A stretch of DNA of 64,000 nt, from the NCBI RefSeq assembly GCF_040529055.1, contig NZ_CP132342.1, forward strand, positions 1,486,001 through 1,550,000, given 5' to 3'. A program made the position numbers and the translations under genes. This document shows, piece after piece, positions 10,409 to 28,620 of this stretch. This DNA comes from Xanthomonas sontii (lineage in GTDB: Bacteria > Pseudomonadota > Gammaproteobacteria > Xanthomonadales > Xanthomonadaceae). Below the pieces are notes generated by a model, which made no database searches, was not told where the DNA came from, and saw nothing but the letters and a program-made list of their open reading frames with translations. The stretch's first letter is position 1. Each line of letters begins with the position of its first letter.

Positions 10409-10694
10409 CCGGGGAAACTCCTGTGGCGAGGCGGGGTGGAGGGCCCTCCCGCAGTGGCTGGTGACGAGCGAGAAAGCATATCGCCGGCGCGTTGCGATTG
10501 GACCATGACTGAAGGGACAGACCCCGCGGGCGGGCAAGGCCGGTCGTCCGCTCTCGCAACGCGCAGGCGGCGCATCGGTTGACACGGATTCGCAAGGGTT
10601 TTTTGTCCGCAACGGGATCCGTGGCCGCCCATCGCCGGCGGCCGATGCACTACAGTGACTGAACGCCCGTTGCGTCCCGATCTGGAGCCCTGCC

Positions 10695-11999
10695 ATGCCG
10701 CGCCTGTCCCGCCTGCTGTCCGCGATGCTGTTCGCCGTCCCCGCCCTGGCCTGGGCGCAGAGCGCCGAGCGCCCGGAGGTGACGGCCGCCGCGACCAGGC
10801 TGCAGGCCAAGGTGGTGGAGTGGCGGCGCGACTTCCACCAGCACCCGGAGCTGTCCAACCGCGAGGAGCGCACCGCCGCCAAGGTCGCCGAGCGGCTGCG
10901 CGCGCTGGGCCTGAAGCCGCAGACCGGCATCGCCCATCATGGCGTGGTGGCCATCGTCAAAGGCGCGCTGCCCGGGCCGAAGATCGCCCTGCGCGCGGAC
11001 ATGGACGCGCTGCCGGTGACCGAGCAGACCGGCCTGCCGTTCGCCTCCAAGGCCACCAGCGAGTACCGCGGCGAGACCGTGGGGGTGATGCACGCCTGTG
11101 GCCACGACGCGCACACCGCGATCCTGCTCGGCGTCGCCGAGGCGCTGGTGGCGATGCGCGCGCAGCTGCCGGGCGAGGTCATGCTGGTGTTCCAGCCGTC
11201 GGAGGAGGGCGCCCCGGGCAACGAGGAGGGCGGCGCCTCGCTGATGCTCAAGGAAGGCCTGTTCCGCGACTTCAAGCCGCAGGCGATGTTCGGCCTGCAC
11301 GTGTTCTCCAGCGTCCAGGCCGGCAAGATCGCGGTGCGCGGCGGCCCGCTGATGGCCGCCTCGGACCGTTTCAGTATCAAGGTGATCGGCCGCCAGACCC
11401 ACGGCTCGGCGCCGTGGAACGGCATCGACCCGATCGTGACCAGCGCCGACCTGATCGGCGCGGCGCAGACGGTGATCAGCCGCCGCGCCAACCTGTCCAA
11501 GCAGCCGGCGGTGCTCAGCTTCGGCGCGATCAAGGGCGGCATCCGCTACAACATCATTCCCGACGACGTGGAGATGGTCGGCACCATCCGCACCTTCGAC
11601 GAGGGCATGCGCCAGCAGATCTTCGCCGACCTCAAGACCGTGGCCGAGCACACCGCCGCCGCGCACGGCGCCAAGGCCGAGGCGCACGTGCCCGACCAGG
11701 ACGGCAACCCGGCCACGGTCAACGACCCGGCGCTGACTGCGCGCATGCTGCCCAGCCTGCAGGCGGTGGTCGGCGCCGGCAACGTCTACGAACCGCCGCT
11801 GCAGATGGGTGCGGAGGATTTCTCGTTCTACGCGCAGCAGGTGCCCTCGATGTTCTTCTTCGTCGGCGCCACCGGCCCCGGCATCGACCCGGCGACTGCG
11901 CCCAGCAATCACTCGCCTCAGTTCCTGCTCGACGAGACCGCCCTGGACGTCGGCCTGCGCGCGATGCTGCAGGTGACGCTGGATTATTTGAAGCAGTGA
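10695..11999 (+). CDS. M20D-family amidohydrolase, exported (N-acyl or peptide amidohydrolase)
   Basis: A 434-residue zinc amidohydrolase of the M20D (hippurate/IAA-amino-acid hydrolase) type. The signal peptide (MPRLSRLLSAMLFAVPALAWAQ) indicates a periplasmic location. Catalytic signatures visible include the metal-binding MHACGHDAHTAILLG and FQPSEEGAPGNEEGG, with the catalytic Glu pair, plus a dimerisation domain near residues 215-330 and the late metal-site MGAEDFSFYAQQVPSMFFF. These enzymes cleave an N-acyl or amide bond next to an amino acid. The exact substrate cannot be read from sequence. CTGGAG lies before the ATG, and TACAGT at 10651-10656 is a possible -10. It is divergent from the efflux operon. 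Confidence 0.9.
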   Translation: MPRLSRLLSAMLFAVPALAWAQSAERPEVTAAATRLQAKVVEWRRDFHQHPELSNREERTAAKVAERLRALGLKPQTGIAHHGVVAIVKGALPGPKIALRADMDALPVTEQTGLPFASKATSEYRGETVGVMHACGHDAHTAILLGVAEALVAMRAQLPGEVMLVFQPSEEGAPGNEEGGASLMLKEGLFRDFKPQAMFGLHVFSSVQAGKIAVRGGPLMAASDRFSIKVIGRQTHGSAPWNGIDPIVTSADLIGAAQTVISRRANLSKQPAVLSFGAIKGGIRYNIIPDDVEMVGTIRTFDEGMRQQIFADLKTVAEHTAAAHGAKAEAHVPDQDGNPATVNDPALTARMLPSLQAVVGAGNVYEPPLQMGAEDFSFYAQQVPSMFFFVGATGPGIDPATAPSNHSPQFLLDETALDVGLRAMLQVTLDYLKQ

Positions 12000-14829: not shown

Positions 14830-15954
14830 TCAGTGATGCGCGTGCAGATCCAGCATGCGCCCACCCACCACCACCTGGCGCAGGCGCAGGTCGCTGTCCA
14901 GCACCACCAGGTCGGCGCAGGCGTCGGGGGCGATGCGGCCGCGGTCGCCGAGGCTCAGGTAGTCGGCCGGGAAGGTGGAAACGCGCTGTGCGGCGTCGGC
15001 CAGCTCCAGGCCCGCCTGCACCAGGTTGCGCAACGCCTGGTCCATGGTCAGTGCGCTGCCGGCCAGCGAGCCGCTGGCCAGGCGCACGCAGCCGCCGCAC
15101 TTGTGCACGCGCTGCTCGCCCAGTGCGTATTCGCCGTCGGGCATGCCGGTGGCGGCGGTGGCGTCGGTCACCGCGTACAGGCGCGGGATCGCACGCGCGG
15201 CAAGGCGAATCACGCCGGGATGCACATGCTGCAGGTCGGGAATGAGTTCGGCGTACTGCGCATGCGCCAGCGCCGCGGCGGCGATGCCGGGGCGGTAGTG
15301 GTCCACGCCGGTCATGCCGTTGAACAGGTGGGTGAAGCCGGCCGCGCCGGCCTGCAGCGCCGCCACGCCGTCCTCGTAGCTGCCGGCGCTGTGGCCGAGC
15401 TGCACGCGGATACCCAGCGCGGTCAGCGCCGGAATCAGCGCGGTGTGCGCACCGATCTCCGGCGCCAGGGTCAGCACCCGGATCGGCGCCAGCGCCTGCC
15501 ACTGCTGGACCTGGGCGAGGCTGGCCTCGATCGTGCGGTCGGGTTGCGCGCCCAGCCGCTGCGAGCTGATGAAGGGGCCTTCCAGGTGCACGCCGGCGAT
15601 GCAGGCGGCGTCGGCATCGGGCGCGGCCATGGCCGCGGCGACGCCGCGCAGTGCGTGCGCGATCTCCTCGACGCCGGCGGTCATGGTGGTCGCCAGCAGG
15701 GTGGTGGTGCCGAAGCGCAGGTGGGCGCGGGCGATGCGCCGCGCCGCGTCGCCGCCCTGCATCAGGTCCACGCCGGCGGCGCCGTGCACGTGCAGGTCGA
15801 CGAAGCCCGGCAGGATCAGCGGCAATTGCGGATCGTCGCCGCCACTGTGGTCGTCCACCTGCAGCCGGCGCACGTGGGTGTCGAAGTGGACGTGGCCGCG
15901 ACGCCAGCCCAGCGGGGTGAGCAGGCGGCCATGCAGGGAACGCGTATCGGTCAT
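14830..15954 (-). CDS. agaA: N-acetylgalactosamine-6-phosphate deacetylase (NagA/AgaA family)
   Basis: A 374-residue amidohydrolase that removes acetate from an N-acetylhexosamine-6-phosphate in the cytosol. Family motifs visible are DLHVHGAAGVDLM near residue 53 (metal site), HLEGPFIS, LGHSAGSYEDG, THLFNGMTG and the catalytic VTDATAATGMPDGEY. By sequence alone it could be a GlcNAc-6-P deacetylase (NagA). Because it is last in an operon with agaS, agaK, agaZ and an AgaR-like regulator, GalNAc-6-P is the more likely substrate. The ATG overlaps the stop of the regulator gene by four bases, so translation is probably coupled. Confidence 0.9.
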   Translation of the reverse strand: MTDTRSLHGRLLTPLGWRRGHVHFDTHVRRLQVDDHSGGDDPQLPLILPGFVDLHVHGAAGVDLMQGGDAARRIARAHLRFGTTTLLATTMTAGVEEIAHALRGVAAAMAAPDADAACIAGVHLEGPFISSQRLGAQPDRTIEASLAQVQQWQALAPIRVLTLAPEIGAHTALIPALTALGIRVQLGHSAGSYEDGVAALQAGAAGFTHLFNGMTGVDHYRPGIAAAALAHAQYAELIPDLQHVHPGVIRLAARAIPRLYAVTDATAATGMPDGEYALGEQRVHKCGGCVRLASGSLAGSALTMDQALRNLVQAGLELADAAQRVSTFPADYLSLGDRGRIAPDACADLVVLDSDLRLRQVVVGGRMLDLHAHH

Positions 15955-16733
15955 GGCGCGGGCTCGGCGACGATCACCTCGATGCCCAGCCGCTGCAGCC
16001 CCTCGCGGGTGGCCTCGTCGATGCCGGCGTCGGTGATGATGGCGTGGATCTGGTCCAGGCGGGCGATGCGGTGCAGGCTGACCCGGCCGAACTTGGAGGC
16101 GTCGGTCAGCACCACGATGCGCCGCGCGCGCTCGACCATGCGGTGGTTGAGCCGCGCTTCGGCCTCGTCGTGGGTGGTCAGGCCGAACTGCAGGTCCAGG
16201 CCGTCCACGCCCAGGAACAGCGTGTCGAAGCCGTAGGCGTTGAGGCTGGCCTCGGCCTGGCTGCCCTGCAGCGACAGAGACTGCTGGCGCAGTTGGCCGC
16301 CGGTGAGCAGCACGTTGATGCCGGGTGCGTTGGCCAGTTCCCAGGCGATGTTGAGGCCGTTGGTCATCACCGTGACGTCGCGGTGCGCGCGCAGGTGCCG
16401 GGCCAGGGTCATCGTGGTCGAACCGGAGTCGATGATGATGTTGGCGCCGGGCTGCACCATGCGCGCGGCGCAGGCGCCGATCGATTCTTTCAGTGGCAGG
16501 TTCAGCGCGTCCTTTTCGTGGATGTCCTGCTCCTGCGGCGGCGTGCGCACCAGCGTGGCGCCGCCGTGGGTGCGGGTGGCCAGGCCCTGCGCCTCGAAAT
16601 GGTTGAGATCGGCGCGAATGGTCACCGCCGACACGTCGAAGCGTTCGACCAGATCGGCAACCTGCACCGTGCCATGTTCGAGCAGCGACTGCAGGATCTG
16701 CTGGCGGCGGGAGCGGGTGTTGCGCATGGCCAT
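15951..16733 (-). CDS. agaR: DeoR-family repressor, AgaR-like
   Basis: A 260-residue DeoR-type regulator. The N-terminal winged helix covers about residues 8-60 (RRQQILQSLLEHGTVQVADL ... FDVSAVTIRADLNHFEAQGL, then the THGGA hallmark), followed by the sugar-phosphate sensor domain (IIIDSGSTTMTLARHL, VMTNGLNIA, LFLGVDGLDLQFGLTTHDEA, VLTDASKFGR). It is encoded inside the aga operon between agaZ and agaA, overlapping agaA by four bases. AgaR repressors are known to bind clusters of CTTTC. Nine such sites lie in the divergent promoter region at 20221-20490, which makes this the likely repressor of both operons. The start could be two codons later. Confidence 0.9.
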   Translation of the reverse strand: MAMRNTRSRRQQILQSLLEHGTVQVADLVERFDVSAVTIRADLNHFEAQGLATRTHGGATLVRTPPQEQDIHEKDALNLPLKESIGACAARMVQPGANIIIDSGSTTMTLARHLRAHRDVTVMTNGLNIAWELANAPGINVLLTGGQLRQQSLSLQGSQAEASLNAYGFDTLFLGVDGLDLQFGLTTHDEAEARLNHRMVERARRIVVLTDASKFGRVSLHRIARLDQIHAIITDAGIDEATREGLQRLGIEVIVAEPAP

Positions 16734-16760
16734 TCTCGGATTCGCGGGCGACCGGGAAGA

Positions 16761-18095
16761 TTAGCCGTTCTCCGCGACGCCGGCAGCCGCTTCGGCGCTT
16801 GGCCGGCGCGCGCCGGCGCGGTTGGCGCTGCAGGCGCGGGCGTATTCGCCCAGGCACAGGCCGATGCGGTGCTGGACCAGCGCCGCCGGGGTAGTGGCGA
16901 GCTGGCCGGCGCGCACCGCGCGGTACTGCTCGGGCAGGAACTGGCTGAGCAGCACCAGCGGCGGCGCATGCCGTTCCAGGTTGGCGAACAAGGTGTCCAC
17001 CGCCGCGCGCACCGTCGGCGCGCCCCAGTAGTAGCGGCAGCGGTCGCTGAAGGAATGGCGGCGCAGCAGGCGTTGCGCGGCGGCGTCGCCCGGATAGTAG
17101 GACTGCCAATACCCGGGTTGCGCCTGCATTGCCGCGTCCAGCACCTGCGGCAGTTGCGAGCACTGCGCCGCGGGGAACAGTTCGGCTTCGATCGCGGCCA
17201 GCGCGCACAGCGCTTCGCGATAAGCGAAGGTGGCGGCCGGGCCGACCTTGAGGATGGCGAAGTGGTCGCGCACCAGCGCGTGCAGCGCGTCCTCGCGCTG
17301 GTAGTCGGTGGAGTGCGCCTCGAACACGATGCGCGGCTGCTGCTCGAGGAAATCGGCCAGCGCGGCGGCGGCGGCCGGATCGTAGTCGTGCACGCTACTG
17401 TGGTCGAAATCCACGCCCGGCTGCACCACCAGCGCGATCACCCGCTGCCACGCGGCGCGCAGCGGCGGCGTGTCGAAGGCCTGCCGGTGGATGGCCAGGG
17501 TCTGCGCGGCCGCGGTCGGCGTGGTCACCTGCAGGCCGCCGGCCAGCGAGGCTTCACCGCCGGGAATCGGCACCTCGGTGCCGATCACGTACACCGGTGG
17601 CGGCAGCCCATGCGCGGCGGCGGTGCGCTCGGCGATCTCGGCCAGTTCGGCCGACCGCGCGGCGACGACGGCATCGGGCAGCGGCACCGGATCGTCGGCG
17701 CAGGCCATGCTGCAGTCCAGGTGGATCTTGTGGAACCCCGCGGCGACGTACTGTTCGATCAGCACGCGCGCATGCGCCATGGCCTCGGCGGCCGGCCCCT
17801 TCTGCCAGGCGTTCGGGCCCAGGTGATCGCCGCCCAGGATCAGCCGCGCGCGCGGGAAGCCTTCCGTCTCGGCCAGTGCGCCGACGTAGTCGCGGTACTG
17901 CGCCGGGGTTATGCCGGTGTAGCCGCCGAACTGGTCGACCTGGTTGGAGGTGGCCTCCACCAGCAGCAGCGTGTCGTGGGCCAGCGCGACCTGCATCGCC
18001 GCGCGCAGCACCTGGTCGTTGCTGCAGCAGACGCTGTACAGGCCGACGTTGGCGCCGGCGCGATGGGAGGCGAGCAGGGTCTGCAAGGGCGACAT
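16761..18095 (-). CDS. agaZ: tagatose-bisphosphate aldolase-associated subunit (GatZ/KbaZ/AgaZ family)
   Basis: A 444-residue protein of the GatZ/KbaZ family (VGLYSVCCSNDQVLRAAM near residues 17-34, LILGGDHLGPNAWQ, GFHKIHLDCSMACADD, VYVIGTEVPIPGGEA). In E. coli these proteins partner and stabilise the catalytic class II aldolase KbaY/GatY that splits tagatose-1,6-bisphosphate. Other catalytic roles have been proposed for AgaZ. No KbaY/AgaY gene is nearby, so either a distant aldolase is used or this protein acts differently. It sits 15 bases after agaK and 27 bases before agaR in the same operon. Confidence 0.92.
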   Translation of the reverse strand: MSPLQTLLASHRAGANVGLYSVCCSNDQVLRAAMQVALAHDTLLLVEATSNQVDQFGGYTGITPAQYRDYVGALAETEGFPRARLILGGDHLGPNAWQKGPAAEAMAHARVLIEQYVAAGFHKIHLDCSMACADDPVPLPDAVVAARSAELAEIAERTAAAHGLPPPVYVIGTEVPIPGGEASLAGGLQVTTPTAAAQTLAIHRQAFDTPPLRAAWQRVIALVVQPGVDFDHSSVHDYDPAAAAALADFLEQQPRIVFEAHSTDYQREDALHALVRDHFAILKVGPAATFAYREALCALAAIEAELFPAAQCSQLPQVLDAAMQAQPGYWQSYYPGDAAAQRLLRRHSFSDRCRYYWGAPTVRAAVDTLFANLERHAPPLVLLSQFLPEQYRAVRAGQLATTPAALVQHRIGLCLGEYARACSANRAGARRPSAEAAAGVAENG

Positions 18096-18110
18096 GGGGA
18101 CTCCGGCGGA

Positions 18111-19049
18111 TCAGGAATAGGCGGGATGGCAGGCCAGCAGCGCGGCACCACGGGCGCCGCCGGCATCGCCGAAGCGCGGCGGCACGATCGGCGGCACCTG
18201 CACGCCGGCGAACAGGTGCGCGGCGATGGCGTCGGGCAGTTGCCGGTACAGCGGCGGGTATTGCGACAGCCCGCCGCCGAGCACGATCACGTGCGGGTCC
18301 AGCGCCAGCACCACGGCGGCCAGGCTGTGGCCGAGCAGGTCGCGGTGGATGTCCAGCGCCTGCTGCGCGCGCGCATCGCCGGCCTCGGCCAGGGCGATCG
18401 CCGCGCTGGCATCGGCGGCGTCGCTGCCGAGATGGCGCGCGATCGCCGCCACGCCGCTGCCGGACACGTAGCGCTCCACGCAGCCCTGCAGGCCGCAGCC
18501 GCAGTCCAGCAGCGGCAGGCGATGGCGCTGCAGCAGGTGCCCGGGCACGCTCCAGTGGCCCCATTCGCCGGCGATGCCGTTGCAGCCGGCGAGCAGGCGG
18601 CCCTGCACGCAGAAGCCGCCACCGGCGCCGGTGCCGAGGATGGCGCCGAACATGCTGGGGTAGCCGTCGGCGGCACCGCCGTGCGCCTCGGACAGCGCGA
18701 AGCATTGCAGGTCGTTGCCGATGCGCAGCGGACGCGGCAGCCGCGCCTGCAGATCCTGCGCCACGCACTGGCCGGTCAGCGCCGGCACGTTCGCGCTCAA
18801 CTGGCGGCCGCTGCGGCGGTCGCGCACGCCGGGCAGGGCGATGCCGAGCGGGCTGTCGTGGTGGCCGAGCGCGGCATCGGCCGCGGCCACCAGCGCCACC
18901 ACCGCCTGCAGGAAGCCGGCGTAGTCGCCCTGCGGCGTGGCCACGCGGCGCCGCCACAGCACCTGCAGCGCGGCGTCGCAGGCCACCAGTTCGATCTTGG
19001 TGCCCCCGACGTCCAGGCCGTAGCAGGTGGGCGCGCCAGGCTCAGCCAT
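18111..19049 (-). CDS. agaK: ROK-family sugar kinase, predicted GalNAc kinase AgaK
   Basis: A 312-residue ROK kinase. The ATP-binding DVGGTKIELV lies near residues 13-22, with the sugar-binding and catalytic region IGNDLQCFALSE, the GTGAGGGFCV loop, GEWGHW, and the zinc motif CGCGLQGCVERYVSG typical of N-acetylhexosamine kinases. It would use ATP to phosphorylate free GalNAc at C6 in the cytosol. A GlcNAc kinase (NagK) cannot be excluded by sequence. The GalNAc assignment rests on the neighbours. Its start overlaps the end of agaS by eight bases. Confidence 0.88.
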   Translation of the reverse strand: MAEPGAPTCYGLDVGGTKIELVACDAALQVLWRRRVATPQGDYAGFLQAVVALVAAADAALGHHDSPLGIALPGVRDRRSGRQLSANVPALTGQCVAQDLQARLPRPLRIGNDLQCFALSEAHGGAADGYPSMFGAILGTGAGGGFCVQGRLLAGCNGIAGEWGHWSVPGHLLQRHRLPLLDCGCGLQGCVERYVSGSGVAAIARHLGSDAADASAAIALAEAGDARAQQALDIHRDLLGHSLAAVVLALDPHVIVLGGGLSQYPPLYRQLPDAIAAHLFAGVQVPPIVPPRFGDAGGARGAALLACHPAYS

Positions 19050-20196
19050 GGTGGATGGTGACGCCCTGGACCACGCGGTTGACGGTGCCGTCGGGGAACG
19101 GGTTGTCTGGGGTCAGGCCGAGCGCGGCCGAACGCTGCAGTGCGAACAGTTGCGCGAAGCCCAGCCACAGCGGCGCCAGCCACGGATCGTCCAGGCCGGC
19201 GACGGCGAGCGTGTGGTCGTCGCCGGCCCCGATGTCCGCATGCGGGCCGATCGCCAGCACCTGGCCGGCCACGCCATCGCGGCGCAGTTCGTCCAGCAGG
19301 TCCTGCTCGTAGCGGCGCGCCAGCGGCTGCACGCTGCGCAACACCACCACCAGGGTGCTGCGGTCGAGCGTGGACTTGGGGCCGTGGCGGAAGCCCAGCG
19401 GCGTGTTGGCCAGCGCCAGCACGCGGCCGGCGGTGAGTTCCAGCACCTTCAGCGCGGCCTCGCGCGCCAGCGCTTCCAGCGGGCCGCTGCCGAGATAGAT
19501 CACCCGTGCGAACGGGCGCTGCGCCAGCGCCGCCACCGCGCCATCCCATTGCGCCAGGCCGCGGTCGGCCAGTTCGGCCAGCCGCTGCAGGCGCGCGCTG
19601 CGCGTTTCCCATGGCGCACGGTCGAACACGCTCAGCGCCGCCAGCAGCATGCAGGTCAGGCTGCTGGTCATGGCGAAGGCGCGATCGCAACTGGCCGGCG
19701 GCATCAGCAGGGTGCAGGTGTCGGCGCGGCCGGCGCCGCGGCGGGCCAGTTCGCCGTCGGCGTTGCAGGTGATGTCGAGGAAGCGCGCGTCGTCCACGTC
19801 GCTGCGCACGCGCTCCACCGCGGCCACGCTTTCCGGGCTGGAGCCGCTGCGCCCGAACGACACCAGCAAGGTCGGCCGCGCGCGCTGCAGGTACAGCGCC
19901 GGATGGGTCAGCAGGCTGGTGGTGTGCACCGCACGCACCTCGGCCGGCCACTGCGCATTGATCGCGTCGGCCACCATCTCGGCGATGAAGCCGGAACTGC
20001 CGGCGCCGGTGAACAGCACGCGCTGGTTCGGATCGGCGAGGCGGTCGCCGAGGAAGGCCTGCAGGCGGTCGCCGGCCCGCGCCAGGTCCTGCGCCAGGGT
20101 CCGCCACAGCGCCGGCTGCTGGGCGATCTCGCGGGCGGTATCGGCCCCGCCCAGGCGCTGCCAGGCGGATGCATCGGAAAGCGGAAGGAGGTCCAT
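19042..20196 (-). CDS. agaS: SIS-domain galactosamine-6-phosphate deaminase/isomerase AgaS
   Basis: A 384-residue protein with two SIS (sugar isomerase) domains: VLFTGAGSSGFIAEMVADAI near residues 60-80 with LLVSFGRSGSSPESVA, and VIYLGSGPLEALAREAALK in the second half with NTPLGFRHGPKS. AgaS proteins convert GalN-6-P to tagatose-6-P and ammonia. The start at 20196 is chosen because ACAGGAACC precedes it. The open frame runs 18 codons further upstream, but into the promoter region. It is the first gene of the aga operon (agaS-K-Z-R-A), divergent from the glycosidase/receptor operon. Confidence 0.91.
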   Translation of the reverse strand: MDLLPLSDASAWQRLGGADTAREIAQQPALWRTLAQDLARAGDRLQAFLGDRLADPNQRVLFTGAGSSGFIAEMVADAINAQWPAEVRAVHTTSLLTHPALYLQRARPTLLVSFGRSGSSPESVAAVERVRSDVDDARFLDITCNADGELARRGAGRADTCTLLMPPASCDRAFAMTSSLTCMLLAALSVFDRAPWETRSARLQRLAELADRGLAQWDGAVAALAQRPFARVIYLGSGPLEALAREAALKVLELTAGRVLALANTPLGFRHGPKSTLDRSTLVVVLRSVQPLARRYEQDLLDELRRDGVAGQVLAIGPHADIGAGDDHTLAVAGLDDPWLAPLWLGFAQLFALQRSAALGLTPDNPFPDGTVNRVVQGVTIHHG

Positions 20197-20221
20197 GCGG
20201 TGGTTCCTGTTGGGCCAGCGC

Positions 20222-20250
20222 ACCATCCGGCTTTTCTTTCGAAATGTCAA
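20222..20250 (-). promoter_or_regulatory. candidate promoter of the aga operon
   Basis: On the minus strand TTGACA (20250-20245) is followed after 17 bases by GATGGT (20227-20222), which would start transcription near 20215, about 19 bases before agaS. A CTTTCGAAA site lies in the spacer. The -35 is perfect and the -10 is poor. Confidence 0.5.
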
Positions 20251-20442
20251 ACATCGAAAGAAAAAAGAAAGTATTTACCTGTGCCCGATGTGTCTGCGGA
20301 TCGCCCGCCCTAAAACGAAAGATGCAGGTGGATGCGGCTATAGCAAGCCGGATCAGCCGATTCTGCCGAGCTGAAAGCAAAGTCATGCGAGGCAATATCT
20401 TTCGTTTTTCCAAAATAAATCTTGTTTTTTGCTTTCAATTTA

Positions 20443-20472
20443 TTGACATCTTTCAAATCCCTGGCCTAGAGT
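20443..20472 (+). promoter_or_regulatory. candidate promoter of the GH31-receptor-GH109 operon
   Basis: TTGACA (20443-20448) and TAGAGT (20467-20472) are separated by 18 bases. A CTTTC site (20450-20454) sits in the spacer and another (20483) near the predicted transcript start. Confidence 0.6.
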
Positions 20473-20519
20473 CGGCGCAACGCTTTCGAAACGCCCGGGG
20501 AAACGGGTTTGGGGGTCGT

Positions 20520-23500
20520 GTGGAGAACCGCGTTCGTCGCTCGTCGCTGTTGCCTGCGATCGCGCTGCCGGCCCTGCTGCTGGCGGCGGCCACCGTCGTC
20601 GCCGAGCCGGTCGGCAACCTGCGCACGGTCGCCGCCGGCACCAGCCGTGACGGCGTGCAGGGCTGGGACCTGCAGACCGACCGTGGCGTGCGCCTGCGCA
20701 TCGAGCTGCCGGCGGCGGACATCGTGCGCGTGCAGGCCGGGCGCCACGGCACGCTCACCGGCGCCGGCGACAAGGCCACGCCGATCGTGCTGCCGCAGCC
20801 CAAGGCCGCGGTGCAGGCGCAGCTGGAAGACGATGCGCAGGAGCTGCGCGTGCGCACCGACGCGCTGGTGCTGCACGTGCAGCGGCAACCGCTGCGACTG
20901 CGCCTGGAGCGGCTGGAACAGGGCCGCGCGGTCGCGCTGTGGCAGGAACTGCAGCCGCTGGACCTGGACGCCACGCAGAGCGTGCAGGTGCTGTCCTCGC
21001 AGGCCGACGAAGCCTATTACGGCGGCGGCCAGCAGAACGGGCGCTTCGAGTTCAAGGGCCGCGAACTGGAAGTGTCGTATTCCGGCGGCTGGGAGGAGGG
21101 CGATCGCCCGAGCCCGGCGCCGATGCTGCTCAGCAGCCGCGGCTGGGGCATGCTGCGCAACACCTGGAGCGACGGCAGCTACGATCTGCGCCAGCACGAC
21201 CAGGCCACGCTGCTGCACCGCGAAGACCGCTTCGACGCCTACTACTTCGTCGGCGCCGACCTGCCGGCCCTGATCGAGCGCTATACCCGGCTGACCGGCC
21301 GCCCGAGCATGCTAGCGCGCTGGTCGCTGTCCTACGGCGATGCCGATTGCTACAACGACGGCGACAACGCCAAGAAGCCCGGCACCGTGCCCGACGGCTG
21401 GCATGACGGCCCCACCGGCACCACCCCGGACGTGGTCGACAGCGTGGCGCGGCAGTACCGCGAGCACGACATGCCCGGCGGCTGGATCCTGCCCAACGAC
21501 GGCTACGGCTGCGGCTACACCAGGCTGCCGGAGACCGTGCAGGGCCTGGCCCGCTATGGCTTCCGCACCGGCCTGTGGACCGAGAACGGCGTGGACAAGA
21601 TCGCCTGGGAAGTCGGCAAGGCCGGCAGCCGCGTGCAGAAGCTGGACGTGGCCTGGACCGGCAAGGGCTACCAGTTCGCGATGGACGCCAACCACCAGGC
21701 CTACGACGGCATCCTCGCCAATTCCGATGCGCGCCCGTTCCTGTGGACGGTGATGGGCTGGGCCGGCATCCAGCGCTACGCGGTGGCCTGGACCGGCGAC
21801 CAGAGCAGCAGCTGGGACTACATCCGCTGGCACGTGCCGACCCTGATCGGCTCCGGCCTGTCCGGCATGGCCTACGCGGCCGGCGATGTGGATGCGATCT
21901 TCGGCGGCAGCGCCGAGACCTTCACCCGCGACCTGCAGTGGAAGGCCTTCACCCCGGTGCTGATGGGCATGAGCGGCTGGTCGTCGAACGCGCGCAAGCA
22001 TCCGTGGTGGTACGACGAGCCGTACCGCAGCATCAACCGCGATTACCTGAAGCTGAAAATGCGCCTGACCCCGTACATGTACGGCCTGGTGCACGACGCC
22101 GCGCAGACCGGCGCGCCGCCGGTGCGCGGGCTGATGTGGGAGGACCCGCGCGATCCGCACGCGCAGGACGAGACCTACAAGACCCAGTTCCTGCTCGGCC
22201 GCGACCTGCTGGTGGCGCCGGTATACCGCAGCCAGGCGGCCAGCCGGGGCTGGCGGCGCGACATCCATCTGCCGGCCGGCGGCTGGATCGACTACTGGGA
22301 CGGCCGCCGCGTGCAGGCCGGCGCCGACGGCCGTCAGCTCGACCGCCAGGTCGATCTGGCCACGCTGCCGCTGTTCGTGCGTGCCGGCGCGATCCTGCCG
22401 ATGTACCCGGCGATGCTGTACGACGGCGAGAAGCCGCTGGACGAGGTCACCTTCGACCTGTATCCGCAGGGGGCCTCGCAGTACACGCTGTACGAGGACG
22501 ACGGCAACACCCGCCGCTACCAGCAGGGCGAGTCCAGCACGCAGGTGGTGCGCATGCAGGCGCCGGCGCAGGGCAGCGGCCCGGTGCAGGTGTGGATCGA
22601 TCCGGTGCAAGGACGTTACGCCGGACAGCTGCCGCAGCGCCGCTATGCCTTGCGCGTGCTCGCGCGGCAGGCGCCGCGGTCGGTGCAGGTCGGCGAGCGC
22701 GCGCTGCCGACGGTCGCCGACGCCGCGGCCTTCGCCCAGGCCAGCGAAGGCTGGTACTTCGACGCCACGGAGCGCCGCGGCACCGTGCACGTGCGCACCG
22801 CCGTGCAGGACATCCGCCAGCCGCTGCAGCTGCGGCTGGACTTCCCGGTCGCCGCCGCCGCGGCCGACGACGCCTATCCGCCGGCGCCGGTGCTGGGCCG
22901 CGCGCTGCCCGCCGACAGCCTGCTGGTGGTGAACCGCCCGGCCGAGGAACCGGGGCACCCGCTGGAGAACGCCTTCGACGACGACCCGGGCACCTGGTTC
23001 CGCAGCGTGCGCAACCAGGCCGTGCGCACCGGCGCGCACGAATGGGTGATCGGTTTCGGCGAGCGCAAGATGATCGACGGCATCGAGCTGGCGCCGCGCA
23101 ACGACAAGAACTGGAAGCACGGCCAGGTGCGCGACTACGAGGTCTACCTGGGCGACAGCAATGGCGAATGGGGTGAGCCGGTGGCGCGCGGCCATCTGCG
23201 CTTGCAGGAAGGCGTGCAGCGCATCGACTTCCCGGCGCATGCCGGCCGCCTGCTGCGCTTCCGCGTGCTGAGCGTGCAGAACCCCGAGGGCGACGGCGCC
23301 GACAGCAACGATCCGATGGTCGTCGCCGCGCAGCGCCGGCCGCGCGCCTTCGACGCGCTGCAGCCGCGCGACGTCGGCCCGATCGCGCTGTCCACCTTCC
23401 ACATCCTCGAGCACCCGGCGCCGGAACGGCCGGCGCAGCAGCGCTATCTGTCCGAGCTGGCGTTGCCGGCGGCGCTGGCCGGTCGCGTGCGCGCCGACCA

Positions 23501-23882
23501 GGCCTTGCGCGGCGATGCCGGCATGCGCATGAACGGCCTGCAGTTCCGCCGCGGCCTGGGCGTGGGCGCCGACAGCCGCCTCGACCTGCGCCTGCACGGC
23601 GACTGGCGCCTGCTGCGCGCCGACCTGGGCATCGACGACGCCTGCCGCAGCGCCGGCGGCCTGCAGTTCCAGGTCTGGGGCGACGGCCGCCTGCTCTACG
23701 ACAGCGGCCTGGTCAGCGCGCCCGGCGTGGTCAAGCCGGAACTGGATATCCGCGGCCTGTCCACGCTGAGCCTGCGCACGCTCGGCGCGCAGGGTCCGCA
23801 GCCTGCCCAGGTCTGCGGCAACTGGGCCAACGCCGTGCTGATCGGTCAGGAGGGCGACACCGCCAGCTTCGTCGCCCCATGA
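20520..23882 (+). CDS. secreted GH31-family glycosidase with C-terminal carbohydrate-binding domains, predicted alpha-N-acetylgalactosaminidase
   Basis: A 1120-residue exported glycoside hydrolase. The GTG at 20520 is chosen because it is followed by a signal peptide (LLPAIALPALLLAAATVVAE) and lies after the predicted promoter. The frame stays open far upstream without biological support. The catalytic (beta/alpha)8 region has GWILPNDGYGCGYT, the probable nucleophile Asp at about residue 376 (KLDVAWTGKG) and acid/base Asp at about 427 (AWTGDQSSSWDYIRWH), and a GH31 C-terminal beta domain (VAPVYR ... LPLFVRAGAILP). An F5/8C-like discoidin domain follows (residues ~800-940), then an NPCBM-like module (ALPAALAGRVRADQ onward). 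The Aga context and these active-site sequences point to the alpha-GalNAcase branch of GH31. Substrate is inferred. Confidence 0.85.
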   Translation: MENRVRRSSLLPAIALPALLLAAATVVAEPVGNLRTVAAGTSRDGVQGWDLQTDRGVRLRIELPAADIVRVQAGRHGTLTGAGDKATPIVLPQPKAAVQAQLEDDAQELRVRTDALVLHVQRQPLRLRLERLEQGRAVALWQELQPLDLDATQSVQVLSSQADEAYYGGGQQNGRFEFKGRELEVSYSGGWEEGDRPSPAPMLLSSRGWGMLRNTWSDGSYDLRQHDQATLLHREDRFDAYYFVGADLPALIERYTRLTGRPSMLARWSLSYGDADCYNDGDNAKKPGTVPDGWHDGPTGTTPDVVDSVARQYREHDMPGGWILPNDGYGCGYTRLPETVQGLARYGFRTGLWTENGVDKIAWEVGKAGSRVQKLDVAWTGKGYQFAMDANHQAYDGILANSDARPFLWTVMGWAGIQRYAVAWTGDQSSSWDYIRWHVPTLIGSGLSGMAYAAGDVDAIFGGSAETFTRDLQWKAFTPVLMGMSGWSSNARKHPWWYDEPYRSINRDYLKLKMRLTPYMYGLVHDAAQTGAPPVRGLMWEDPRDPHAQDETYKTQFLLGRDLLVAPVYRSQAASRGWRRDIHLPAGGWIDYWDGRRVQAGADGRQLDRQVDLATLPLFVRAGAILPMYPAMLYDGEKPLDEVTFDLYPQGASQYTLYEDDGNTRRYQQGESSTQVVRMQAPAQGSGPVQVWIDPVQGRYAGQLPQRRYALRVLARQAPRSVQVGERALPTVADAAAFAQASEGWYFDATERRGTVHVRTAVQDIRQPLQLRLDFPVAAAAADDAYPPAPVLGRALPADSLLVVNRPAEEPGHPLENAFDDDPGTWFRSVRNQAVRTGAHEWVIGFGERKMIDGIELAPRNDKNWKHGQVRDYEVYLGDSNGEWGEPVARGHLRLQEGVQRIDFPAHAGRLLRFRVLSVQNPEGDGADSNDPMVVAAQRRPRAFDALQPRDVGPIALSTFHILEHPAPERPAQQRYLSELALPAALAGRVRADQALRGDAGMRMNGLQFRRGLGVGADSRLDLRLHGDWRLLRADLGIDDACRSAGGLQFQVWGDGRLLYDSGLVSAPGVVKPELDIRGLSTLSLRTLGAQGPQPAQVCGNWANAVLIGQEGDTASFVAP

Positions 23883-24001
23883 CCGCCCCGTAACACCGCT
23901 CCTCCCCCGCCTTTCCCGACTGCGGCCGCCTGGCCGTGGCCCGGGAGCGCTTTGCCCGCCGATTCCGCGTTCGCGCCGCACCCTGCCAGGAGAGAACCCC
24001 G

Positions 24002-26974
24002 ATGTTGCCCGCCCGTCACCGCCATCCCCGCTGTCGCCCGCTCGCTCCGTTGACCCTGGCCATCGCCGGTGTCCTGCTCGCCGCCCTGCAGCCCGCCGCC
24101 GCGCAGGACAGTCAGGCCGCCACCGACCTGGCCCGGGTCGAAGTCACCGGCTCCAACATCCGCCGCACCGACGTGGAGACCGCCTCGCCGGTGCAGGTGA
24201 TCAGCAAGCAGGACATCCAGGCGATGGGCGCGCGCACGCTGCTGCAGGTGCTCGACAACCTGCCCGCGGCGCGGCCGGCGCAACAGGACGCGCGCTCGCT
24301 GTTCACCGGTTCCGATGGCGCCTCGCAGGCCAATCTGCGCGGCCTCGGCGCGCAGGGCACGCTGGTGCTGTTGAACGGCCGTCGCCTGTCGTACTACGGC
24401 GCGCCGGCCGGCTTCCAGACCCAGTTCGTCAACATCGATGCGATCCCGGCCGCGGCGATCGAGCGCATGGAAGTGCTCACCGACGGCGCCTCGGCGGTGT
24501 ACGGCACCGACGCGGTGGCCGGCGTCATCAACGTGATCACCAAGCGCAACTTCCAGGGCGCGGAGATCAATTTCAGCAACGACACCTCCACCCGCATCGA
24601 CTCCTACGGCGAGCACCAGGCCAGCATCACCGCCGGCTTCGGCGACCTCACCGAGAACCGCTTCAACGTCTACGGCGCGGTCAACGTGTACCGGCGCGAT
24701 GCGATCCCGTTGCGCGACTTCTACGACAAGCGCCCGGCGCAGTACTACGTCAACAATCCCAACTACCTGACCAACCTGCGCCTGGGCGTGGGTAGCAAGC
24801 CGGGCCAGTTCAACCCGGGTAGCTACTTCGCCTTCGACCCGGTCACCGGGCGCCGCGTGCAGGAAGCCGCACCGGGCTGCCAGAACGTGCTGACCAGCGA
24901 GGCCGCCGGCCCGCGCTGCGTGTGGGAAACCTGGTTGAACAACGAGATCGACGCCGGCGCCAAGTCCGAACGCAACACCGCCTACCTCAACGGCACCTTC
25001 CTGGTCGGCGCCAGCACCGAACTGTTCGCCGAAGCCACCTACACCGACATCGACCTGCGCGCCAACGGCGGCACCCCACGCGCGTTCAACACCACCACCG
25101 GCAACCCCACCAGCTGGTTCTCCCGCAACACCGGCAACACCGTCAACCAGTTCCTGTATCCGTTCCTCGGGCCCAACAACGAGTACAACCATGCCAGCCC
25201 GCAGTTGAAGGCGATGATGGGCGGCGTGGTCGGCCTGCAGTACCTGCTGCAGGACGCCGGTCCCGACTACTTCGGCCAGCGCAACACCGACAAGAGCTAC
25301 CGCGTGCTCGGTGGCGCGCGCGGCAGCTTCGGCGACTGGAACTGGGAAACCGCCTTCGCCACCGCCGGCACCCACTCGGTCACCTACCAGACCGTCAACG
25401 TCAACGTGAAAGGCTTCGAGAAGGCGTTCGGCCCGTTCACCATCGACCCGGGCACCGGCCGGGTGATCATCTCCGACCACCCGGCGTACAGGTTCGGCGA
25501 GATCAGCGCCGCCAACGCTGCGCTGATCCGCGAAGCATTCCCCACCTTCGACATCGAATCGTGGACGCGCCTGCACACCCTCGACGGCAAGATCGAAGGC
25601 CCGTTGTTCCAGCTGCCGGCCGGCGAGATGCGCGCCGCGTTCGGCTTCAACGCCAGCCGCGAGACCTTCTACACCCCCGGCAACCCGGACGCGGCCAACG
25701 GCCTGATCACCCAGCAGGGCGGCTCCTGGTTCGATGGCAAGCGCAACACCTATGCGCTGTTCGCCGAGACCGTCGCGCCGATCACCGACAAGCTGGAACT
25801 CGACGCCGCGTTGCGCGCCGACAAATACCCGAACTTCAGCACCAACCTGGCGCCCAAGGTCGGCTTCAAGTACCAGGCCTTCGAGCAACTGTTGCTGCGC
25901 GGCACCTATTCCACCGGCTTCCGCGCGCCCAGCCTGGCCGAGTCCGGCAGCGGCGGCGTCTATGCGCAGCTGGGCGGCTATCGCGACGAGGTGCGCTGCG
26001 GCGAGACCAACGCCATCGCCAACCTGCTGCTGCAGTCGCGCCGCAGCGGCGACGTGGATCTGGGCAAGAGCCTGCTCAATGCCGACTGCAGCCGCACCGT
26101 GGCGCGCATGACCCAGCCGAACCCGGACCTGAAGCCGGAGAAGGCCAAGATCGCCACGCTCGGCTTCGTCTACGAGCCGGCCAACTGGCTGTCGGTCTCG
26201 GCCGACTACTGGTTCATCTATCGCGACAACGAGATCGTCGCCCCGGACTACCGCCGCGCCGGCGACATCACCGCCATGACCCGCTCGCCGATCACCGACA
26301 GCGACCGCGCCAACCTCGCCCAGCTGGCGGCGATGTGCGCCGACCCGGCCAGCGGCGTGGCCTGCCCGGGCACGCTGCCAGGCTACAGCGTGGGCAATGT
26401 CGCCAGTGTGGTCGGGCAGTACCGCAACCGCGGCAAGACCCTGGTCGACGGCTTCGACATCGACGCGCGCAGCCGCTTCTCGCTCGGCCAGTGGGGCGGG
26501 CTGAACATCGGCCTGGCCGCCACCATCGCCAACCGCAACCGCTTCTACATGGACCAGGACAGCGGCTGGTACTACGGCGACGTGGTCGGCTACTACAACA
26601 ACCCGCGCCTGCGCGCCACGCTCAACGCCGACTGGACCTACCGCCAGGTCACCACCAGCATGTTCGTCAACTACGTCGGCGGCACCAAGTGGGCCACCGA
26701 CCGGATCGACGCCGAGGACAACAACCCGCAGACCTGCACCGCCGGCTACCTCAAGCTGCAGCCGAGCAAATGCGATGGCGCGCCGTCGTGGTGGACCGCC
26801 AACCTCAGCGTCACCTGGCGCCCGGACGACGCCTGGAACCTGAGCTTCACCGTCAAGAACCTGTTCGACCGCCTGCCGTTCTACGATCCGAACAGCTTCC
26901 TGGGCGATTCCAGCGACTACGCCACCATCTTCGGCCGCGGCTACAGCGTGACCATCGGCTACCGCTTCAAGTGA
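24002..26974 (+). CDS. TonB-dependent outer-membrane receptor, predicted GalNAc-glycan transporter
   Basis: A 990-residue TonB-dependent receptor. The ATG at 24002 is chosen because CCAGGAGAG precedes it and a signal peptide follows (cleavage near PAAAQ/DSQ). A TonB-box-like LARVEVTGSNIRRTD occurs near residue 40. The plug domain has SPVQVISKQDIQAMG, LRGLGAQGTLVLLNGRR and IERMEVLTDGASAVYGTDAV, and a 22-strand barrel ends in YSVTIGYRFK with a C-terminal aromatic-Lys end. It lies 119 bases after the GH31 gene and 64 bases before the GH109 gene. It most likely brings GalNAc or small glycans released by those enzymes across the outer membrane, as in Xanthomonas carbohydrate utilisation (CUT) loci. 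Confidence 0.93.
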   Translation: MLPARHRHPRCRPLAPLTLAIAGVLLAALQPAAAQDSQAATDLARVEVTGSNIRRTDVETASPVQVISKQDIQAMGARTLLQVLDNLPAARPAQQDARSLFTGSDGASQANLRGLGAQGTLVLLNGRRLSYYGAPAGFQTQFVNIDAIPAAAIERMEVLTDGASAVYGTDAVAGVINVITKRNFQGAEINFSNDTSTRIDSYGEHQASITAGFGDLTENRFNVYGAVNVYRRDAIPLRDFYDKRPAQYYVNNPNYLTNLRLGVGSKPGQFNPGSYFAFDPVTGRRVQEAAPGCQNVLTSEAAGPRCVWETWLNNEIDAGAKSERNTAYLNGTFLVGASTELFAEATYTDIDLRANGGTPRAFNTTTGNPTSWFSRNTGNTVNQFLYPFLGPNNEYNHASPQLKAMMGGVVGLQYLLQDAGPDYFGQRNTDKSYRVLGGARGSFGDWNWETAFATAGTHSVTYQTVNVNVKGFEKAFGPFTIDPGTGRVIISDHPAYRFGEISAANAALIREAFPTFDIESWTRLHTLDGKIEGPLFQLPAGEMRAAFGFNASRETFYTPGNPDAANGLITQQGGSWFDGKRNTYALFAETVAPITDKLELDAALRADKYPNFSTNLAPKVGFKYQAFEQLLLRGTYSTGFRAPSLAESGSGGVYAQLGGYRDEVRCGETNAIANLLLQSRRSGDVDLGKSLLNADCSRTVARMTQPNPDLKPEKAKIATLGFVYEPANWLSVSADYWFIYRDNEIVAPDYRRAGDITAMTRSPITDSDRANLAQLAAMCADPASGVACPGTLPGYSVGNVASVVGQYRNRGKTLVDGFDIDARSRFSLGQWGGLNIGLAATIANRNRFYMDQDSGWYYGDVVGYYNNPRLRATLNADWTYRQVTTSMFVNYVGGTKWATDRIDAEDNNPQTCTAGYLKLQPSKCDGAPSWWTANLSVTWRPDDAWNLSFTVKNLFDRLPFYDPNSFLGDSSDYATIFGRGYSVTIGYRFK

Positions 26975-27038
26975 GCGCACCTGCAGCAGCATGCGTGCCG
27001 GCCGACGCCGGCGCGCATCCAAAAGGAGACCGCACATC

Positions 27039-28394
27039 ATGAAACGACGCGACTTCATCGCCGCCGGTGCCGCCATCGCCGCCAGCAGCCTGCTGCCGCA
27101 GACGCCGGCCTGGGCGCGCAAGCGCACCCTGCGCCTGGCCATGATCGGCACCGGCATGCGCGGTCAGGTGCTGCTGACCGAACTGCTGCGCCGCGACGAC
27201 GTGGAACTGGTCGCCCTGTGCGACAGCGAGCCGATCATGCTCGGCCGCGCCATGGCCATGGTCGCCAAGGCCGGCAAGCCCGCACCCACCGCCTACGGCC
27301 AGGACCGCGACGCCAGCGCCTGGAAGCGCGTGCTGGCGCACAAAGGCCTGGATGGCGTAATCGTGGCCACGCCCTGGGAGTGGCATGCGCCGATGGCAAT
27401 CGCGGCGATGCAGGCCGGCGTGGCGGTCGGCTGCGAAGTGGTGGCCGGCATCACCCTGCAGGACCACTGGGACGTGCTCAACGCCCAGCTCGCCACCGGC
27501 ACCCCGTACATGCTGCTGGAGAACGTCTGCTACCGCCGCGACGTGATGGCCGCGCTGCAGATGGTGCGGCAGGGCCTGTTCGGCGAACTGGTGCACCTGC
27601 AGGCCGGTTACCAGCACGATCTGCGCGGGGTGAAGTTCAACTCCGGCGACCCGGACCAGCCCTACGACAGCGGCGTGGAGTTCGGCGCCAAGGGCTGGAG
27701 CGAAGCGCGCTGGCGTACCGCGCATTCGGTGCAGCGCAACGGCGAGCTGTACCCCAGCCACGGCATCGGCCCGTGCGCGATGTACGCCGGCATCAACCGC
27801 GGCAACCGCATCACCCATCTCAACGCCTTCGCCAGCAAGGCCCGCGGCCTGCACGACTACACCGTGGCCAAGAGCGGCGGCAACACCCATCCCAGCACCA
27901 AGGTGGCGTTCAAGCTGGGCGACGTCGTCACCACCACCCTGGCCTGCGCCAACGGCGAGACCATCCTGCTACAGCACGACACCTCGCTGCCGCGTCCCTA
28001 CTCGATGGGCTTCCGCGTGCAGGGCACCAAGGGCCTGTGGATGGATCTCAACCAGTCGATCCACCTCGAAGGCCGCAGCCCGCCGCACCAATGGGAAGCC
28101 TTCAAGCCCTACCAGGACCAGTACGAGCATCCGCTGTGGACGCGCTACGCCGCCACCGCGGCCGGCGCCGGCCACGGCGGCATGGACTGGTTCGTCATCC
28201 ACGCCTTCGTCGAAGCACTGAAGGCGAGGGCACCGATGCCGATCGACATCTACGACGCCGTGACCTGGAGCGCGATCACCCCGCTCTCCGAACAGTCGAT
28301 CGCCAGCGGCTTCCAGACCGTCGCATTCCCGGATTTCACCGCGGGCGCGTGGCGCCAGCGCACGCCGATCTTTGCGTTCGACGGCACGTACTGA
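27039..28394 (+). CDS. GH109 glycosidase (NAD-dependent alpha-N-acetylgalactosaminidase family), Tat-exported
   Basis: A 451-residue Gfo/Idh/MocA-fold protein with the features of glycoside hydrolase family 109. These enzymes cleave terminal alpha-GalNAc through an NAD+-dependent oxidation/elimination cycle. The start at 27039 is supported by AAAAGGAGAC and by a twin-arginine leader (MKRRDFIAAGAAIAAS), meaning export as a folded, cofactor-loaded protein. Visible signatures are the NAD-binding RLAMIGTGMRGQVLLTELL, VIVATPWEWHAPMA, CEVVAGITLQDHW, LLENVCYRRDVMAALQMV and YQHDLRGVKFN. It is third in the plus-strand operon. A plain sugar oxidoreductase is the alternative, but the ATPWEWH and CYRRDVM blocks match GH109 better. 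Confidence 0.9.
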   Translation: MKRRDFIAAGAAIAASSLLPQTPAWARKRTLRLAMIGTGMRGQVLLTELLRRDDVELVALCDSEPIMLGRAMAMVAKAGKPAPTAYGQDRDASAWKRVLAHKGLDGVIVATPWEWHAPMAIAAMQAGVAVGCEVVAGITLQDHWDVLNAQLATGTPYMLLENVCYRRDVMAALQMVRQGLFGELVHLQAGYQHDLRGVKFNSGDPDQPYDSGVEFGAKGWSEARWRTAHSVQRNGELYPSHGIGPCAMYAGINRGNRITHLNAFASKARGLHDYTVAKSGGNTHPSTKVAFKLGDVVTTTLACANGETILLQHDTSLPRPYSMGFRVQGTKGLWMDLNQSIHLEGRSPPHQWEAFKPYQDQYEHPLWTRYAATAAGAGHGGMDWFVIHAFVEALKARAPMPIDIYDAVTWSAITPLSEQSIASGFQTVAFPDFTAGAWRQRTPIFAFDGTY

Positions 28395-28494: not shown

Positions 28495-28620
28495 GCCGCG
28501 CGTGGTGCGCTCCGGCGCGCTTTTTTCTGCGTGTCCAGTGTTGCGGTCGTGCCGATTCGCCTTGGGTGGACGGCCGGCCTGGGCTGGGCGTCGATCATCC
28601 TTCAGCCGTCAGTGAGCGCA

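Follow-up and report, generated by a model that had tools for sequence, protein, structure and literature searches.

Described systems close to the locus reported here include the Aga pathway for N-acetylgalactosamine (GalNAc) in Shewanella (PMC2996990), the aga/kba genes of Escherichia coli K-12 (NC_000913.3), and the glycoside hydrolase family 31 (GH31) and GH109 alpha-N-acetylgalactosaminidases (alpha-GalNAcases) of Bacteroides thetaiotaomicron (PMC11992087). In the textbook route, LacC or, as has been proposed, AgaZ acting as a kinase phosphorylates tagatose-6-phosphate to the bisphosphate, which a tagatose-bisphosphate aldolase then splits (accessible parts of PMC12118421 and PMC5583593). 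In the available portion of a study on E. coli (PMC11907403), C4-epimerase activity is reported for GatZ and KbaZ, and tagatose production, which there starts from fructose-6-phosphate, is restored in a gatZ-deleted strain by gatZ or kbaZ but not by fbaA, kbaY, or gatY. The same portion describes the GatZ active site as class II aldolase-like, with two histidines and a glutamate on the metal, and lists the residues by which GatZ/KbaZ proteins can be told apart from class II aldolases. Here we analyze a 64-kb stretch of Xanthomonas sontii DNA (the window; bases 1486001–1550000 of a 5.02-Mb single-contig genome), in which eight uninterrupted frames at positions 14830–28394 form two divergent operons, one with five aga genes and one with a GH31 gene, a TonB-dependent receptor gene, and a GH109 gene. 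The frames and strands that an earlier, sequence-only reading of the window had assigned are confirmed, and Pfam and NCBIfam scans bear out the families. By predicted function, the locus is a genuine cluster for GalNAc capture, cleavage, and catabolism.

In the model that we propose, the receptor would carry oligosaccharides or glycopeptides with alpha-GalNAc residues into the periplasm, where the GH31 and GH109 proteins would release GalNAc by two mechanisms, probably with overlapping yet different linkage preferences. GalNAc would enter the cytosol via an inner-membrane permease encoded elsewhere. AgaK would phosphorylate it, AgaA would deacetylate the product, and AgaS would deaminate the resulting sugar phosphate to tagatose-6-phosphate, which AgaZ would epimerize at C4 to fructose-6-phosphate without a tagatose-bisphosphate aldolase. 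AgaR is predicted to repress both operons through the CTTTC boxes that they share, with repression lasting until an inducer derived from GalNAc is present. Taken as a whole, an AgaR-type-controlled GalNAc scavenging locus ending at fructose-6-phosphate is, in our judgement, quite probable.

A scan of a collection of named genomes with a GH31 alignment confirmed 242 loci, and the 80 best of them serve here as the set of relatives; 75 of these 80 are near full length, the other five being shorter than 20.9 kb. Presence of each of the eight genes was scored at 50% identity or more over 35% of the query, and presence of a permease at E ≤1e-5. The locus proves to be a conserved version of an already known type, and its most interesting point is what looks like a shortened final step of catabolism, at AgaZ. 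AgaZ scores 596 bits against TIGR02810 (cut-off 569) and shares 56% identity with E. coli KbaZ. Its residues C23, E47, H91, E174, H261, and K283 correspond to the active-site residues of GatZ, six out of six, and each of the 76 relatives with an identified AgaZ retains all six. NCBIfam labels the frame 'D-tagatose-bisphosphate aldolase, class II, non-catalytic subunit', though the genome has no class II aldolase match.

The Pfam model of the class II, KbaY/GatY-type aldolases (PF01116) has no match in the X. sontii genome, whereas it gives one in 11 of 14 control genomes. DeoC/LacD has none in the genome either (13 of 14 controls positive), and a LacD-type aldolase was accordingly set aside as a candidate. 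PF01116 is above cut-off in none of 36 genomes of the same family, this one included (one, G034, has a sub-threshold match), and in 5 of 24 genomes from other families of the order. KbaZ was found in 76 of the 80 named loci and KbaY in none; the Oxalobacteraceae loci, which were searched as loci and not as whole genomes, gave no KbaY. Since neither a KbaY/GatY-type nor a DeoC/LacD match is present, AgaZ cannot be the usual non-catalytic aldolase subunit. The simplest reading, we infer, is that the pathway ends at fructose-6-phosphate through AgaZ. For the broader statement, that a large group of Xanthomonadaceae degrades GalNAc aldolase-free, with AgaZ converting tagatose-6-phosphate to fructose-6-phosphate, we lean towards acceptance.

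The GH31 protein matches the solved structures 6m76 (374 bits), 7f7r (372 bits), and 7f7q (371 bits), and two of these three entries carry the name GH31 alpha-N-acetylgalactosaminidase. The next-best solved GH31 structure reaches 160 bits, and named glucosidases and xylosidases score lower still (among the best 60 of 80 matches). Residue D376, which we take to be the nucleophile, aligns with the residue replaced in 7f7q and 7f7r, and D427 aligns with the acid/base. Both are retained in all 80 named relatives. The protein has a Sec-like leader at its N-terminus, as judged by eye, and F5/8C and NPCBM modules at its C-terminus; its closest named match is from Stenotrophomonas geniculata (89%). 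The GH31 barrel is thus closest to the GH31 alpha-GalNAcases, with that activity predicted.

The GH109 protein scores 477 bits against 2ixa, over residues 29–451, and 227 bits against 6t2b, while the best match to any other oxidoreductase is 38 bits. It contains PF01408 (35.8 bits; cut-off 24) and the C-terminal domain PF21252 (269 bits; cut-off 27), and the 2ixa score together with PF21252 rules out a mere Gfo/Idh/MocA oxidoreductase. Residues E162, Y192, Y239, and H242 (residue 1 being the codon at 27036) align with E149, Y179, Y225, and H228 of 2ixa, which we take to be active-site residues, and the four are retained in all 66 relatives in which GH109 was found. The leader, MKRRDFI, appears by eye to be of the twin-arginine translocation (Tat) type, and the closest named match is from Xanthomonas sp. 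Kuri4-1 (88%). Because of these structure and domain scores, two unrelated alpha-GalNAcase families are predicted here. The sequence-only reading had proposed two mechanistically different alpha-GalNAcases next to a single TonB receptor and an Aga operon, to be checked against glucosidases and xylosidases for GH31 and against ordinary oxidoreductases for GH109. The scores support it: judged by sequence scores, not by a tree, none of these groups comes out best.

AgaR exceeds the cut-offs of NF040755 (329 bits; cut-off 260) and PRK09802 (411 bits; cut-off 351) and is 51% identical to AgaR of E. coli K-12. The 320-base region between the two operons contains nine CTTTC/GAAAG boxes (positions 20236, 20256, 20267, 20317, 20373, 20399, 20432, 20450, and 20483), against 0.19 expected from the base rate of the window. 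Shuffling of the region itself (48% G+C) is a stricter control: dinucleotide shuffles have a mean of 1.37 boxes, and none of 2000 reached nine. The two operons share this box-rich control region. CTTTC is reportedly the AgaR motif described by Leyn and colleagues in 2012.

The enrichment recurs in 77 loci in which agaS and GH31 are adjacent, comprising 72 named loci and five others, at least one of which duplicates a named locus; five loci in which the two genes are not adjacent and three named loci in which agaS was not found were left out. These regions contain 3–11 boxes, 6.9 on average, whereas dinucleotide shuffles of the same regions average 1.4. Every one of the 77 exceeds its own shuffle mean, although kinship among the loci and at least one duplicate mean that these are not independent tests. 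The promoter-like site of the GH31 operon, TTGACA-18-TAGAGT, matches the consensus at 10 of 12 positions (shuffles, mean 0.2), and the box at 20450 lies inside its spacer. A search for a second AgaR site with GAAAG-N6-GAAAG gave seven matches genome-wide and seven in the reversed control, and is uninformative because the two counts are equal. With an AgaR-type repressor and multiple boxes, the locus has the make-up of an AgaR regulon, binding of AgaR to the boxes being predicted.

The remaining Aga enzymes are assigned to their families more firmly than to their substrates. AgaA reaches 219.9 bits against TIGR00221 (nagA), slightly under the cut-off of 225.65; the best NCBIfam model for AgaK is N-acetylglucosamine kinase, at 293 bits (cut-off 380); and AgaS reaches 408 bits against TIGR02815 (agaS_fam; cut-off 529). 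AgaS also scores about 273 bits against 3c3j and 3odp, which are solved putative ketose/aldose isomerases, and is 44.5% identical to E. coli AgaS. Because all three lie below their best cut-offs, their exact substrates rest on context, together with the E. coli similarity in the case of AgaS. The genes agaK, agaA, agaS, and agaZ occur together in the locus, as expected for a non-PTS Aga pathway of the Shewanella type (PTS, phosphotransferase system).

The features are listed in Table 1; the start codons of GH31, the receptor gene, agaS, agaA, and GH109 were picked by eye. The minus-strand operon, in the order agaS, agaK, agaZ, agaR, agaA, is tightly packed: agaS and agaK share 8 bases, and the ATG of agaA overlaps the stop codon of agaR. 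On the plus strand, 119 bases separate GH31 from the receptor gene and 64 bases separate the latter from GH109, which is followed after about 110 bases by a terminator-like hairpin (28504–28521).

Table 1 Genes and control elements of the GalNAc locus, in window positions
Feature	Position	Strand	Description
agaA	14830–15954	-	374 aa; predicted GalNAc-6-phosphate deacetylase, NagA-like amidohydrolase; PF01979 above cut-off
agaR	15951–16733	-	260 aa; DeoR-family repressor
agaZ	16761–18095	-	444 aa; GatZ/KbaZ family, predicted tagatose-6-phosphate 4-epimerase
agaK	18111–19049	-	312 aa; ROK-family amino-sugar kinase; PF00480
agaS	19042–20196	-	384 aa; predicted galactosamine-6-phosphate deaminase/isomerase
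Divergent control region	20200–20519	.	Nine CTTTC/GAAAG boxes
Sigma-70-type promoter-like site	20443–20472	+	TTGACA-18-TAGAGT, for GH31 operon
GH31 gene	20520–23882	+	GTG start; 1120 aa; predicted alpha-N-acetylgalactosaminidase
TonB-dependent outer-membrane receptor	24002–26974	+	990 aa; PF07715 plug and PF00593 barrel, both above cut-off
GH109 gene	27039–28394	+	451 aa; predicted NAD-dependent alpha-N-acetylgalactosaminidase

The arrangement is widespread. Besides GH31, which defines the 80 loci, agaR, agaZ, agaK, and agaS were found in 76 each, the receptor in 71, agaA in 68, and GH109 in 66, and all eight genes occur together in 58. These 58 are all near full length; among the 75 such loci, agaS is found in 72, the receptor in 69, and GH109 in 65. 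GH31 carriers include Stenotrophomonas, Lysobacter, Pseudoxanthomonas, Luteimonas, and Vulcaniibacterium, and GH31 occurs at 67–69% identity in Janthinobacterium, Duganella, Massilia, and Rugamonas. The eight-gene arrangement is not due to chance. The sequence-only reading had called the combination unusual, and that description falls: because the arrangement recurs across loci and genera, it is ordinary for the group and no singular find.

Within the genus of the window, full-length GH31 is present in 3 of 20 genomes (its own included), and the same three have a close agaS. Among 100 genomes, again including its own, full-length GH31 is present in six, all of which have a close agaS (at least 74% identity) and five of which have a close GH109 (at least 80%). 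Two further genomes, G026 and G030, have GH109 (66% and 73%) without this GH31. More distant AgaS proteins (46–49%) occur in six other genomes of the genus (G004, G006, G007, G009, G012, and G013). In G013 (locus L118), the only one of these to be annotated, the distant AgaS lies in the vicinity of a GH27-type melibiase that carries an NPCBM module (6912–8270 and 9257–11101), so that a different alpha-galactosaminidase or galactosidase may pair with the Aga route. A second frame of TonB-receptor size stands beside the main receptor in some relatives (L090, 16819–19866; L092, 5605–8655; and similar cases); a tblastn search with the L090 frame matched 20 of 90 loci, many of them from Oxalobacteraceae; some of the matches coincide with the main receptor and have lower identity. 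All eight genes, at 69–88% identity, are also found in a record labelled Bacillus subtilis SK7B5 (JAHREJ010000011.1; L073), which is most likely contamination or mislabelled.

Of the 75 near-full-length loci, 57 have a sugar-porter permease gene next to agaA and in the same orientation, and 18 lack it. Three such permeases (602, 611, and 621 amino acids) all pass PF00083, and two of the three pass TIGR00879. The X. sontii genome has, elsewhere, three permease genes of the FucP/GluP/NagP type, any of which might carry GalNAc. As the permease of the locus itself this type was rejected, since its products match none of the 80 named loci; the sole match among the 90 loci examined is in L124, which is without the GH31 locus. 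A recurrent extra gene of about 420 codons in relatives was likewise dropped as a permease candidate, being a DUF5077-DUF3472 gene. DUF3472 proteins are encoded within or beside related loci in L058 (16587–17861), L092 (8670–9977), L090 (21385–22650), L115 (14791–16044), and L063 (17197–18888), four of the five having DUF5077 as the partner domain and the L063 protein a ricin-type lectin domain. The DUF5077 type occurs in 21 of the 80 named loci, and the lectin type is found in L063 and L069. The L058 copy has no match in the X. sontii genome, in a search made without a positive control.

Several findings weigh against the proposed model. The permease of the relatives has no match in the window, in a search that covered the window and not the rest of the genome; with that protein as the query, rather than AgaP, the window holds no inner-membrane permease of the kind that belongs to a Shewanella-type pathway. 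The sequence-only reading had described the locus as complete-looking. This is too strong for the present copy, because the permease of 57 of 75 loci is not in the window; in addition, no aldolase partner for AgaZ was found in the genome. GH109 was not found in 10 of the 75 named loci, nor in the same-genus genome G011. A promoter-like site was looked for in the agaS direction of the control region, and none was found. The NagK, NagA, AgaS-family, and KbaZ equivalog models all score below their curated cut-offs (593 bits against 707 for KbaZ). E. coli, which has KbaY, carries the same residues in GatZ, so that residue conservation alone cannot separate the readings of AgaZ; the missing aldolase partner carries most of the argument for an epimerase. 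Finally, the genome contains one kinase of the 1-phosphofructokinase family above cut-off (of eight matches) and one class I aldolase match (468 bits, with one TGA in the matched stretch; no control genome was positive), and therefore a bisphosphate route would still be feasible. Class I aldolases often accept tagatose bisphosphate. On such a route, AgaZ would act as a kinase on tagatose-6-phosphate, and tagatose-1,6-bisphosphate would be split by the class I fructose-bisphosphate aldolase. The kinase proposal is in print, as cited in the accessible part of PMC12118421 to a source that is probably the 2012 paper of Leyn and colleagues, and in vitro C4-epimerase activity of FbaA is cited in that of PMC11907403. 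The GatZ metal-site residues and the C4-epimerase activity of GatZ and KbaZ in the latter source, with the same residues in AgaZ of the window, argue the other way, and we regard a kinase role as unlikely.

The missing permease could also mean that the locus is degrading in this genus. The permease of the relatives was found neither in the stretch past agaA in G018 (L141) nor in the approximately 3.8 kb past agaA in G011 (L117), and the low frequency of full-length GH31 in the genus points the same way. In G011, the alignment to the window ends at window base 26999, 40 bases ahead of GH109, and beyond a Tat-like start of about ten codons, seen by eye, there is no similarity to GH109 (best tblastn E 0.8). 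In this part of L117, from 16007 to the end of the locus, a clustered regularly interspaced short palindromic repeat (CRISPR)-like array follows the Tat-like start, with 57 repeat-like matches at 16136–19823, about 66 bases apart. Degradation is nevertheless improbable, as the window has eight intact frames with all compared catalytic residues retained, and G018 keeps all eight genes at 95–99% identity. The substrate is a separate matter. Plant glycoproteins, which the sequence-only reading had included, are unlikely, because plants are not known to make mucin-type O-GalNAc glycans. The main substrate could instead be an alpha-GalNAc polymer of microbial origin, for example galactosaminogalactan from fungi or a surface polysaccharide of bacteria, rather than O-glycans of animals or insects. 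Many carriers belong to soil and plant genera, some of them antagonists of fungi, and the GH31 protein bears F5/8C and NPCBM modules. No polymer-cutting endo-enzyme was recognized among the eight genes in the Pfam and NCBIfam scans, and characterized relatives cleave terminal alpha-GalNAc, for example of the Tn antigen and blood group A (accessible part of PMC11992087). A polymer as the main substrate is a tentative possibility, which we doubt.

If the epimerase reading of AgaZ is true, the GalNAc route would join hexose-phosphate metabolism one step past AgaS, unlike the textbook tagatose-bisphosphate route. Natural genomes that have AgaZ without its supposed aldolase partner make the role of AgaZ, as subunit, kinase, or epimerase, testable. 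The side-by-side GH31/GH109 pairs in named genomes allow two unrelated modes of alpha-GalNAc cleavage to be compared and form a set useful for mucin and blood-group-A enzyme work.

The GH31 protein shares the catalytic aspartate pair with 6m76, 7f7q, and 7f7r, its best matches by a wide margin, which presumably represent the Enterococcus faecalis enzyme of subfamily 18. The 6m76 entry is named an LPXTG-anchored wall protein, whereas the window protein has its Sec-like leader and C-terminal modules instead. The GH109 protein resembles 2ixa and 6t2b, presumably from Elizabethkingia and Akkermansia, in its near full-length match, C-terminal domain, and four active-site residues; its gene adjoins an Aga operon, and 2ixa and 6t2b were compared by sequence alone. 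The sequence-only reading took the combination to be undescribed. Parts of the combination are in print, as an Aga pathway with a TonB-type receptor in Shewanella and as GH31 with GH109 in B. thetaiotaomicron, in the accessible parts of the sources. A single locus with both hydrolases, an Aga operon, and no aldolase was not found in the open-access literature searched, and among the matches listed, no paper names the locus in Xanthomonas or Stenotrophomonas by its title or the start of its abstract. BT4243-GH109 and BT3169-GH31 of B. thetaiotaomicron are similar in being partly redundant periplasmic alpha-GalNAcases with different preferences; they differ in lying in separate loci, together with a SusC/SusD pair and BT4240, a GalNAc kinase, and the accessible text does not mention AgaS (PMC11992087). 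The Shewanella pathway (agaP, omp-Aga, agaA-II, agaK, agaS, and agaO) uses AgaP where the relatives of the window locus use a sugar-porter permease, and GH31 and GH109 are not mentioned in the accessible text, whereas the window locus has both and no permease; the two are alike in being non-PTS and in having AgaK, AgaS, a deacetylase, and a dedicated TonB-dependent receptor (PMC2996990). The E. coli K-12 cluster encodes relatives of AgaR, AgaZ (as KbaZ), and AgaS of the window locus, but it also includes PTS components and, adjoining agaS, the gene of the class II aldolase KbaY, in contrast to the window genome with its lack of a PF01116 match.

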